Part shown: positions 78 through 17,206 of the stretch, piece after piece
Position numbering within the stretch: position 1 is the stretch's first letter
Layout: each line of letters begins with the position of its first letter
Source of the DNA: a virus
Reading direction: 5' to 3' (one strand)
Virus record (IMG/VR): IMGVR_UViG_3300021091_004087
Span: 1-20,486 of that record
DNA length: 20,486 bases
Notes under the pieces: model-generated
The model's input: the letters and a program-made list of their open reading frames with translations, nothing else
Databases searched by the model: none
What the model was told of the DNA's origin: nothing
Translations under genes and position numbers: made by a program

Positions 78-85
78 TATAAATA
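78..85 (+). promoter_or_regulatory. T4-type late promoter for dps
   Basis: This is an exact TATAAATA, the T4-family late consensus recognised by the phage late sigma factor. It lies 18 nt before the dps start, so a late RNA starting near position 91 would have a leader of about 13 nt. A weak 5-bp pairing (ATACC 83-87 with GGTAT 98-102) exists but is not convincing as a control hairpin. Confidence 0.75.
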
Positions 86-103
86 CCTAAAAAATATGGT
101 ATA

Positions 104-538
104 ATGGAAAAGTTATTCAAACTTCTGTCTGATACTCAGGCAAGTCTTTTTGTTTTATTTCAGAAAACTTGGGTGTATCACTGGAATGTAACTGGATCTG
201 AGTTTTATCAGTTTCATACTGTTTTTGGAGAGCAGTATGAGGCAATGTTTGAAGAGATTGATCGTCTCACCGAGCACATGAGATTTCTAAAAATCAAACC
301 AGTTAGTACTCTTAAAAGAATCACAGAAGTTTCACAAGTTGAAGAAGCAAATAGTTCTTTGGGTGCTATGGGAATGGTGAATGATTTAATTAAGTGTAAT
401 CAGCAAATTGTAGACCTTTTAACACAGGTATCTGACGAAGCAGAAGCACAAAAATCAAAGGGCACTATTAATCTTGTTGATGATTTGAATGAAGCACACG
501 GAAAATTTATTTGGATGTTAAGATCCTTTACTGAATGA
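104..538 (+). CDS. dps: Dps/ferritin-like protein
   Basis: This 144-aa protein has the size and residue pattern of the Dps family (DNA protection during starvation). Dps proteins oxidise and store iron with peroxide, usually as dodecamers in the cytoplasm. The signature YHWNVTG is at 25-31. Ferroxidase-type residues His26, His38, Asp53 and Glu57 keep the Dps spacing; the extra acidic ligand seen in some homologues is not in its usual place. The basic N-terminal tail used for DNA binding in some Dps proteins is short here. A late promoter immediately upstream suggests expression late in infection, perhaps to protect DNA from oxidative damage in a photosynthesising host; that role is inference. 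Confidence 0.85.
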   Translation: MEKLFKLLSDTQASLFVLFQKTWVYHWNVTGSEFYQFHTVFGEQYEAMFEEIDRLTEHMRFLKIKPVSTLKRITEVSQVEEANSSLGAMGMVNDLIKCNQQIVDLLTQVSDEAEAQKSKGTINLVDDLNEAHGKFIWMLRSFTE

Positions 539-2487: not shown

Positions 2488-2522
2488 TATAAATATTTGG
2501 GAATACAAATTGTAGTCCCAAA
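2488..2522 (+). promoter_or_regulatory. Late promoter with start-blocking hairpin (HNH 1)
   Basis: An exact TATAAATA occupies 2488-2495. It is followed at once by a hairpin: TTTGGGA (2496-2502) with TCCCAAA (2516-2522), one A/G mismatch, then TACA/TGTA around a 3-nt loop. The right arm reaches the A of the start codon. RNA from the upstream early promoter should fold this stem, while late RNA starting near 2501-2502 would lack most of the left arm. No clear Shine-Dalgarno sequence is visible. Confidence 0.7.
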
Positions 2523-2896
2523 TGAAAACAAGAATTTGTAAAACATGTGGAAACGAAAAATCTCTTGACTTGTCAAAATTTCCATCTGCTGGTATAATAA
2601 AAGGAGTTCAATATTACAGGCACAATTGTATTCCTTGTTACTCTAAACAAAAACTTGAGGAGGGTTCTTTAAGAATGCAAAAGTTTAGAGAATATAAAAA
2701 AACTTTATCATGCAATAGATGTGGTTATAATGATTATAGAGCACTTGAATTTCATCACCCCAATGATGATAAAGATGATTATGATCCTTGCGTTATAGCA
2801 AGAACAAGGTCTTGGGAAAATGTTATTAAAGAACTAAATAAATGTGAGGTTCTTTGTTCAAATTGTCATCGAATAGAACACTTTGCCGGGCATTAG
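2522..2896 (+). CDS. HNH homing endonuclease (first copy)
   Basis: This 124-aa protein has two zinc-binding CxxC pairs near the N-terminus (Cys6/Cys9, Cys36/Cys39) and an HNH nuclease core: Cys64-x2-Cys67, LEFHHP with His78-His79, and CEVLCSNCHRIEH with Cys112, Cys115 and His116. It is a free-standing homing-endonuclease-type gene, not inside a recognisable intron. Its last codons and TAG stop lie inside the first ten bases of tRNA-Pro, and a broken tRNA-Pro 5' end lies before it, which points to a tRNA gene as the insertion target. Expression is probably restricted to late infection by the promoter-hairpin element upstream. Confidence 0.85.
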   Translation: MKTRICKTCGNEKSLDLSKFPSAGIIKGVQYYRHNCIPCYSKQKLEEGSLRMQKFREYKKTLSCNRCGYNDYRALEFHHPNDDKDDYDPCVIARTRSWENVIKELNKCEVLCSNCHRIEHFAGH

Positions 2897-3252: not shown

Positions 3253-3518
3253 TGAAAGTTGTCAGGAAACCTACTGTACTTCTTGAGCGTTTTCCTTACC
3301 GATATGTTCAAGTGGGTATTTTAGAAATCAATGGTAAACCTGATTATCGTATTCAGAAAGTAGATTCCTACACTGGTCGATATAGGGATATGTATCTTCT
3401 AGATAATGAGATGCAACTTATGACTGCTATGGAGGACCATTCCTACACTTGTTGGTTGGATCCTGATAGAGTCCCTGCTTATGTGAAAGGCGATGATAAA
3501 GACACGGAGAGTCTTTAA
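3252..3518 (+). CDS. 88-aa hypothetical protein
   Basis: This 88-aa protein starts at the ATG that overlaps the upstream stop codon. It is soluble, rich in Tyr and charged residues (ERFPYRYVQVGILE, DSYTGRYRDMYLLDNEM), and probably a small beta-rich domain. No catalytic motif is visible. It is cotranscribed with the 71-aa gene from the early promoter at 2985. Confidence 0.7.
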   Translation: MKVVRKPTVLLERFPYRYVQVGILEINGKPDYRIQKVDSYTGRYRDMYLLDNEMQLMTAMEDHSYTCWLDPDRVPAYVKGDDKDTESL

Positions 3519-3533
3519 AAGTACTGGTCGGTG

Positions 3534-3788
3534 ATGAAATCCCCCTTAATGAAAAACACCGATGTAATGCGTTACATCGGTAATATTCTTCTCCTCTCAG
3601 GATACTTTGTCCTTTTATGGGGAGATCCAAAAACTGGATTACTTGTAAAGTGTATTGGTAACATCTTTGTTGTTCCTTTTGCTATCAAGTATAAGTTTTG
3701 GGACATTCTTGTATTATGTGCTTTTTATGGTGCTATTGAAGTTCCAAAATTAATCCAATTATCCTTTCCTAATTTGTTTGTAAATTAG
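3534..3788 (+). CDS. Small multi-pass membrane protein
   Basis: This 84-aa protein has about three hydrophobic segments (near residues 14-29, 36-50 and 55-70), including YIGNILLLSGYFVLLWG. I prefer the ATG at 3534 over the GTG one codon earlier; ATG 3549 is also possible. It likely sits in the host membrane. Its function is unknown. The next reading frame begins 12 nt later with a good ribosome-binding sequence. Confidence 0.65.
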   Translation: MKSPLMKNTDVMRYIGNILLLSGYFVLLWGDPKTGLLVKCIGNIFVVPFAIKYKFWDILVLCAFYGAIEVPKLIQLSFPNLFVN

Positions 3789-3800
3789 GTGGTGGAGTCG

Positions 3801-3830
3801 ATGACCCCTTATGGACAATATCTTATATAA
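3801..3830 (+). pseudogene. 5' piece of a small gene split by HNH 2
   Basis: ATG 3801 is preceded by AGGTGGTGGAG, a strong ribosome-binding sequence, but the frame (MTPYGQYLI) stops after nine codons exactly where the HNH control element begins. A matching open 3' piece follows the HNH gene (4279-4371). Joined near CTTAT/AAAAATTC, the two would give a protein of about 36 aa. This is an inference from frame, RBS and position. Confidence 0.45.
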
Positions 3831-3852
3831 ATAAACACAGTTATATAGGATA
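3819..3852 (+). promoter_or_regulatory. Late promoter inside RBS-hiding hairpin (HNH 2)
   Basis: The arms 3819-3830 (TATCTTATATAA) and 3841-3852 (TTATATAGGATA) pair over 12 bp with one T-G wobble and a 10-nt loop. The right arm contains the AGGA ribosome-binding site (3847-3850) just before ATG 3854. The exact late promoter TATAAATA (3826-3833) straddles the left arm and loop. A late RNA starting near 3839-3840 would therefore lose the left arm and expose AGGA, while early readthrough RNA would hide it. Confidence 0.75.
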
Positions 3853-3853
3853 A

Positions 3854-4288
3854 ATGGCAACTAGAGAACAAAAGTTAGAAGCAAAAAGACGCTACTATCA
3901 AAAAAATAAAAACAAACTAAATGTAGAATCAAGAGAACTCAACATTAGATTGAGATATGAAAAGAAAAATTTTATCATAGAATCTCTTGGATCTAAATGT
4001 CGTGGGTGTGGGACTACTGATTGTCTAGAAATAGATCATATCAATCCTGGACTAAAAAAAGATAGAAAATGTCTTTATGTTTGTTCTTGGGACAGAATCA
4101 AAAGTGAAATGGATAATCTCCAACTTCTCTGTAGTGCCTGTCACCAAGAAAGATCTCAGTTGCAAAAAGATGCTTCTTGGTTTTATTTTAAAAATCTTCC
4201 TCTAGAAGAGCAAAATAATCTAATGGAGCAATTCAAAAAAAAGGGTTCTACTTTACCTTCTTGGTGCCCGCAAGATAAGGCACAATAA
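3854..4288 (+). CDS. HNH homing endonuclease (second copy)
   Basis: This 144-aa protein has a basic, Lys/Arg-rich N-terminus (about residues 1-40) for DNA contact. The HNH core follows: CRGCG (Cys49, Cys52), LEIDHINPG with the catalytic-type Asp61-His62, an Asn-containing helix (DNLQLLCSACH, Asn88), and Cys93, Cys96 and His97. It is not closely similar to the first HNH protein outside the core, so the two are separate insertions rather than a recent duplication. It appears to interrupt a very small gene. Late-only translation is predicted from its upstream hairpin. Confidence 0.85.
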   Translation: MATREQKLEAKRRYYQKNKNKLNVESRELNIRLRYEKKNFIIESLGSKCRGCGTTDCLEIDHINPGLKKDRKCLYVCSWDRIKSEMDNLQLLCSACHQERSQLQKDASWFYFKNLPLEEQNNLMEQFKKKGSTLPSWCPQDKAQ

Positions 4289-4371
4289 AAATTCTTGCTG
4301 GTGCGGATGGGGTTACCCCGCCTGGTTTCCAATTTCCAGTTAAAGAATTGGTGGCGAGCCTGAGTACATAA
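4279..4371 (+). pseudogene. 3' piece of the small gene split by HNH 2
   Basis: A frame different from the HNH frame is open from 4279 to TAA 4369-4371 and reads like a real protein end (ILAGADGVTPPGFQFPV then KELVASLST). It has no start codon of its own or RBS, and it runs into a good terminator. It fits in frame with the nine-codon start at 3801 if the HNH element is removed. The ancestral protein is not identified. Confidence 0.45.
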
Positions 4372-16657: not shown

Positions 16658-16712
16658 ATTTCATATACCATACATTATAAATAATATAAAATATATGTGT
16701 GGTATATGAAAT
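16658..16712 (+). promoter_or_regulatory. Late promoter in loop of start-hiding hairpin (HNH 3)
   Basis: The arms 16658-16675 (ATTTCATATACCATACAT) and 16695-16712 (ATGTGTGGTATATGAAAT) pair over 18 bp with one T-G wobble. The 19-nt loop (16676-16694) starts with an exact TATAAATA late promoter (16676-16683). The right arm contains the start codon ATG 16706. RNA from the hli early promoter should sequester the start; late RNA from about 16689-16690 contains only the right arm. Confidence 0.8.
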
Positions 16713-17206
16713 CTCTTTACAACATCGGTGATAAAATACACCGACTTACTATCAAAGGAAAAACAGTTTGCACTACTCCAAGTGGAAGAAATCGTTCTCA
16801 TTATATTTGTGAATGTGAGTGTGGAAATGAAGTGAAGGTTGAGGGATATAACCTCAATAATGGTCGTTATAAATCCTGTGGATGTAAAAGAGCATCTGCT
16901 GGTGGAATATCAAACACAAAAAAATATAGAATGTGGAAATCTGCACAAGAGCGTGCTATTAAAAAAGGATTAGAATTTTCTATACGAGTGGAAGATATTA
17001 AAATACCAAAAACTTGCCCTTTATTGAACATAACACTTATTGAAGGTGATAGAGAATGTACTCCTTCACTTGATAGAATTGATAGTAAAAAAGGATATAC
17101 TCCAGACAATGTGTGGGTTATATCTCATAGAGCAAACCAAATAAAAAATGATGCTACACTTGAAGAATTAAAACTTATAACAGAAAACCTATCAAAAATA
17201 ACTTGA
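16706..17206 (+). CDS. HNH-like homing endonuclease (third copy)
   Basis: This protein is 166 aa from ATG 16706; a GTG at 16697 would add three residues. The N-terminal zinc module is YICECECGNEVKVEGYNLN (Cys35, Cys37, Cys39) with SCGC (Cys58, Cys60), a pattern common in phage homing proteins. The nuclease-like part is SLDRIDSKKGYTPDNVWVIS with Asp123 and Asp126, Asn135, then HRANQIKND (His141, Asn144, Lys147); the usual DHID is DRID here. It lies between hli and the ferredoxin genes without obvious intron sequence, so it is likely free-standing. Confidence 0.75.
   Translation: MKSLYNIGDKIHRLTIKGKTVCTTPSGRNRSHYICECECGNEVKVEGYNLNNGRYKSCGCKRASAGGISNTKKYRMWKSAQERAIKKGLEFSIRVEDIKIPKTCPLLNITLIEGDRECTPSLDRIDSKKGYTPDNVWVISHRANQIKNDATLEELKLITENLSKIT

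Follow-up and report, generated by a model that had tools for sequence, protein, structure and literature searches.

Early and middle RNAs of the T4 endonuclease genes I-TevI, I-TevII, I-TevIII and segB, and of mobE in Aeromonas phage Aeh1, carry a structure that hides the ribosome-binding site (RBS), whereas the shorter RNA made from a late promoter cannot form this structure (PMC2988022); for Aeh1 mobE, the RBS-hiding hairpin was shown by experiment (PMC2988022, PMC3014915). In T4 gene e (lysozyme), a hairpin silences the long early RNA, and the late RNA, which starts inside the hairpin, is translated (PMC3014915). The I-TevI gene overlaps the core of its intron, and sealing of its RBS also allows that core to fold undisturbed (PMC2988022). 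The late motif of cyanophages is NATAAATA (PMC2984593), and the TATA box sits approximately one helical turn upstream of the late start (PMC2988020).

Here we describe an element in the window (the whole 20,486-nt stretch of DNA that was analysed) that, judging from its sequence and those of its relatives, is very probably a timing switch, combining an RBS hairpin with an embedded late promoter, that governs a mobile HNH endonuclease gene in a T4-like cyanophage (Table 1). The mechanism is already known, matching that of T4 I-TevI, SegB and Aeh1 mobE. The record contains psbA, tRNAs, and PhotoRC-II and wcaG RNAs, and is therefore a fragment of a T4-like cyanophage, with Synechococcus phage S-SRM01 as the nearest annotated genome over the window. 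The late motif NATAAATA precedes genes in the window, as in gp55-dependent late transcription of T4-like cyanophages; the gp55 gene itself is absent from this 20-kb fragment. The HNH protein matches the PF01844 profile and has the conserved Cys4 and HNH residues (C49, C52, D61, H62, N64, N88, C93, C96 and H97 are invariant in the copies compared). Occupied and empty versions of the insertion site both exist, and the gene is a candidate mobile (homing) endonuclease gene. IMG/VR contigs were used for comparison because tblastn of the protein against annotated phages gave only remote matches.

Table 1 Coordinates of the HNH gene, its flanking RNA elements and two sister elements in the window
Feature	Position	Strand	Details
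Sister element, first HNH gene (2522-2896)	2488-2523	+	TATAAATA 2488-2495; hairpin 2495-2502/2516-2523 over gene start
Hairpin left arm	3819-3830	+	TATCTTATATAA; missing from predicted late transcript
Late promoter TATAAATA (cyanophage late motif NATAAATA)	3826-3833	+	Exact; in left arm and loop
Loop, 10 nt	3831-3840	+	ATAAACACAG; predicted late start ~3839-3840 (inferred)
Hairpin right arm	3841-3852	+	TTATATAGGATA
Shine-Dalgarno AGGA	3847-3850	+	Inside right arm; homologues have GGGA, GGAG or GGGG
HNH endonuclease gene, 144 aa	3854-4288	+	Pfam PF01844, E = 1.5e-6; PHROG HNH families
wcaG RNA (RF01761)	4262-4365	+	80.3 bits, E = 6.8e-14; 5' element overlaps HNH gene 3' end
Pseudoknot helix A, 5' strand GTGCC	4264-4268	+	In last HNH codons
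Pseudoknot helix B, 5' strand GCAAGA	4270-4275	+	Coding
Pseudoknot helix A, 3' strand GGCAC	4279-4283	+	In last HNH codons
Pseudoknot helix B, 3' strand TCTTGC	4293-4298	+	Just past stop codon
Sister element, Endo VII/HNH-like gene (16706-17206)	16661-16709	+	15-bp hairpin 16661-16675/16695-16709, TATAAATA 16676-16683, over gene start

As the initial annotation had it, a 12-bp stem covers the RBS and contains, in its left arm and loop, an exact late promoter: all 12 pairs can form, including one U-G (3823 with 3848). The AGGA lies only 3 nt before the ATG, which counts against reading the element as an RBS-hairpin switch, and Shine-Dalgarno pairing matters less in cyanobacteria. The hairpin folds with -8.6 kcal/mol (z = -4.4 over 42 nt and -3.2 over 62 nt; 0 of 200 shuffles were as stable), and the computed cost of opening the RBS is 8.95 kcal/mol in the long RNA versus 2.58 kcal/mol in the late RNA. 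Its stem is AU-rich, it is the weakest of the three such elements in the window, and a global inverted-repeat scan missed it because it offers no 9-nt exact seed. Given that 60 of 1,000 shuffles with promoter and coding start held fixed reached the computed opening difference, the single-sequence evidence is only suggestive. The same count would also fit an account in which the late promoter alone is functional and the hairpin is a by-product of the AT-rich promoter region, as would the frequency of TATAAATA, which is close to chance given the AT-richness of the window (five sites against 3.6 expected; all five on the plus strand, 13-40 nt upstream of an ORF). Conservation in homologues, set out below, clearly lifts the hairpin above chance.

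In the proposed switch, RNAs from upstream starts (early or middle read-through) would carry both arms, and the hairpin would hide the Shine-Dalgarno sequence, leaving the HNH gene transcribed but hardly translated. A late sigma factor of the gp55 type would then fire at TATAAATA inside the hairpin; since this sequence spans the left arm and loop, the late transcript, with a predicted start near 3840, would lack the left arm and could not form the stem. Its RBS would be open and the endonuclease would be made late. The late start site, the translational silencing and the timing are inferred; the element resembles the systems described above to differing degrees. As in I-TevI (and I-TevII and I-TevIII), NATAAATA lies in the left arm or loop, 20-23 nt upstream of the start codon, with the RBS in the right arm and a late RNA without the left arm, and the computed behaviour is the same (RBS opening in long versus late RNA, by the same method, 14.7 versus 1.3 kcal/mol for I-TevI and 17.0 versus 5.8 kcal/mol for segB), in keeping with the RBS-hiding function first assigned to the hairpin. 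Unlike I-TevI, which lies in a group I intron, the HNH gene is free-standing and sits at a wcaG RNA. The segB gene, a free-standing endonuclease gene among tRNA genes, likewise has CATAAATA 22 nt before its start and a hairpin over the RBS, but it encodes a GIY-YIG fold at a tRNA locus, whereas the gene at 3854-4288 encodes an HNH protein at wcaG, and it is the first HNH family of the window that lies at a tRNA (tRNA-Pro). Aeh1 mobE, likened here by description rather than by sequence, is also an HNH endonuclease gene with its RBS hidden in a hairpin, but sits in a ribonucleotide reductase gene. The initiation region of T4 gene e shares the hairpin and the late start inside it; gene e is not mobile.

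A protein-guided search recovered ten close further loci (70-98% amino acid identity); two of these (L003 and L004) share one hairpin sequence, which, with the window, gives ten distinct elements. In every one of them a hairpin whose loop is 10 nt long precedes the start, and ATAAATA and its spacing are invariant (10 of 10 distinct copies), as expected if, as first proposed, RBS sequestration and an embedded late promoter go together. Standard pairs occupy 90% of pair cells in the ten copies, versus 82.2 ± 1.7% in shuffled alignments (0 of 500 reached this) and 29-58% when the stem alignment was slid. Both-side changes, the covariation that the initial annotation had suggested looking for, amount to 15 cells, versus 6.1 ± 1.7 in shuffles (0 of 500); they touch six stem pairs, a number reached by 59 of 500 shuffles and, alone, not exceptional. 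No close homologue keeps the gene and loses the stem, the case that the same annotation had named as contrary to it; the worst are L010 and L011, with one internal mismatch each. Upstream flanks differ among several copies and similarity begins at the stem; the hairpin therefore travels with the gene. Comparison of the copies shows that the hairpin exists and covaries, that the promoter is conserved and that the hairpin moves together with the gene.

The copies also bear on two other roles that the hairpin might have. The inverted repeat could be a DNA operator that the endonuclease binds to repress its own late promoter, in the manner of I-TevI, which has an operator besides its hairpin (PMC2988022), and the repeat does overlap the late promoter. 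However, an operator should conserve its sequence, whereas here stem pairs change together, the sense strand tolerates G-U pairs, and cousins with similar proteins have unrelated stems; we therefore consider it very unlikely as the explanation of the repeat, although an operator role in addition to the hairpin switch could exist. In 9 of the 10 copies, G-U pairs give the sense strand a better fold than the antisense strand, a preference that favours RNA over a DNA palindrome. Alternatively, because some T4 endonuclease mRNAs are subject to RNase E processing (PMC2988022), the hairpin might be mainly an RNA processing or stability signal that does not block ribosomes. The paired part, however, covers the purine-rich RBS and ends beside the ATG in the copies, and we rate this the least probable of the explanations considered. 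A role as a transcription terminator was ruled out, the stem being AU-rich and followed by no T-run.

The switch layout extends beyond the close homologues. In HNH relatives at 35-44% identity, the position of NATAAATA is unchanged although the stem sequences are unrelated (L207, for instance, has GGAGTATCTCATTATAAATAACCAGAGATACTCC); one distant relative (L222:1001) keeps a strong RBS hairpin and has no intact NATAAATA octamer, and remote relatives without the late motif mostly have no hairpin either. Both sister elements of the window show the RBS-hairpin and late-promoter layout in their own families, such that all three endonuclease genes of the window have it, with RBS opening costs in long versus late RNA of 12.1 versus 4.9 kcal/mol at 2522 and 21.8 versus 3.5 kcal/mol at 16706. 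The early suggestion that one architecture recurs with unrelated stem sequences is borne out by these two elements and by the distant relatives. Across all 160 ORFs preceded by NATAAATA in the loci collected by that stage, the opening difference had a median of 9.7 for endonucleases (n = 57) and 2.9 for others (n = 103; Mann-Whitney P = 2.5e-15); the size of this effect is approximate because the sample includes contigs fetched for relatives of the window's three endonucleases, the endonucleases were assigned by similarity and Pfam/PHROG matches, some after the ranking had been seen, and ORF starts were set mechanically. An earlier switch criterion of at least 7 lost pairs let through too many genes (70 of 119 others) and was dropped in favour of RBS opening energies. 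In these contigs, the layout is thus much more widespread among endonuclease genes, of several folds, than among other genes with a late promoter. That the hairpin is a by-product of the promoter region is, accordingly, highly improbable, a shade more so than the operator: against it stand the homologue covariation, the far smaller opening difference of other late-promoter genes on the same contigs, and the presence of a hairpin at every one of the window's three endonuclease genes.

Hairpins near late motifs were also seen at other genes. The ATG of a Dps-like gene after a tRNA (window 78-104; ~30 loci) is preceded by the late motif and by a short, weak hairpin, which is less stable than those of the endonucleases, yet recurrent. 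In phrog_3316 genes of unknown function (L119:9383, L170:873, L142, L088, L106 and others), NATAAATA lies directly 5' of a hairpin that resembles a terminator, has a T-run and extends up to the ATG; a late start would therefore fall inside the terminator.

At its 3' end, the HNH gene overlaps a wcaG RNA, a feature that the initial annotation had missed. The gene end, ...CTTGGTGCCCGCAAGATAAGGCACAATAAAAATTCTTGC, can form an H-type pseudoknot adjoining the conserved TGGTGCGG of wcaG. The window's wcaG is a full-length match to RF01761, but the first stem of the Rfam family is a simple hairpin, whereas the 5' element here is a pseudoknot to which HNH codons contribute part of the sequence. wcaG lies 3' of the HNH gene in all ten close homologous loci, and all copies of the gene but one decayed copy (L011, where wcaG falls below the Rfam gathering score and the pseudoknot is lost) end inside a 5' element of the pseudoknot form; the final codons and the stop of these copies are therefore RNA structure. 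Pseudoknot pairing holds in 99.3% of cells across 13 distinct sequences with and without the inserted gene, with both-side changes in 6 cells versus 1.3 in shuffles (0 of 500). In L010, one C-G pair has become U-G, a change that keeps the pair but creates a stop, so that the last residues are lost.

Intact pseudoknot sites without the gene occur at L130, L182, L184, L187 and L189. In a survey of all loci collected (the first wcaG survey had 80), 88 of the 113 distinct wcaG copies have a simple hairpin instead; insertion at any wcaG was ruled out, nearly all HNH copies lying at the pseudoknot form. An unrelated GIY-YIG-like gene, also behind a hairpin with the late motif, ends in the same wcaG pseudoknot (L119, L132, L179 and L183) with nearly the same C-terminal residues as the HNH gene; in both, the C-terminus (SW.PQDK.Q) is RNA structure (window 4262-4365; L002-L010, L119, L132 and L179). 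This gene has no Pfam match of its own; a likely relative (L002:675) has a NUMOD3 motif. Our literature search found no paper joining wcaG with an inserted endonuclease, which does not prove that none exists; the 3' end is apparently new, and the joint layout of a 5' seal with a 3' overlap with structured RNA is the part that we judge worth following. Separately, small hairpin or pseudoknot modules followed by TGGTCGG/TGGTGGAGTC...GACCCC form tandem repeats upstream of wcaG and also occur after stop codons, both in the window (3499-3600 and 3755-3815) and upstream of most wcaG loci; they resemble repeated versions of the wcaG design and have no Rfam match.

A comparable 3' overlap is seen at a second gene of the window, the first HNH gene (2522-2896), which ends inside tRNA-Pro (2887-2960). 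All of its homologues examined (L015-L019, L074, L096 and L155) end inside tRNA-Pro(TGG), the 5' part of which supplies the last codons and stop of this family. Upstream of the same gene, the window also contains a tRNA-like remnant (GGGGTGTAGCGCAGTTT), and the 3' end of the third endonuclease gene had no RNA family match. By analogy with the I-TevI intron, early sealing of the RBS may also keep ribosomes off the wcaG RNA and tRNA-Pro. More tentatively, and as an idea that we would not yet favour, cyanophage endonuclease cassettes with unrelated folds might park at RNA elements, borrow the first strand of the RNA as last codons and stop, and be sealed early so that the RNA folds, a renewed form of the I-TevI/intron compromise in which a regulatory RNA and a tRNA take the place of the intron.

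Together, the covariation provides comparative evidence for a mechanism so far tested in few T4-type genes, and overlap with a wcaG RNA or a tRNA represents an unusual kind of endonuclease insertion site. Where a coding end overlaps such an RNA, there is a testable reason for strict timing. The results suggest that endonuclease genes of T4-like cyanophages commonly have this layout and retain it as the stem sequences turn over.
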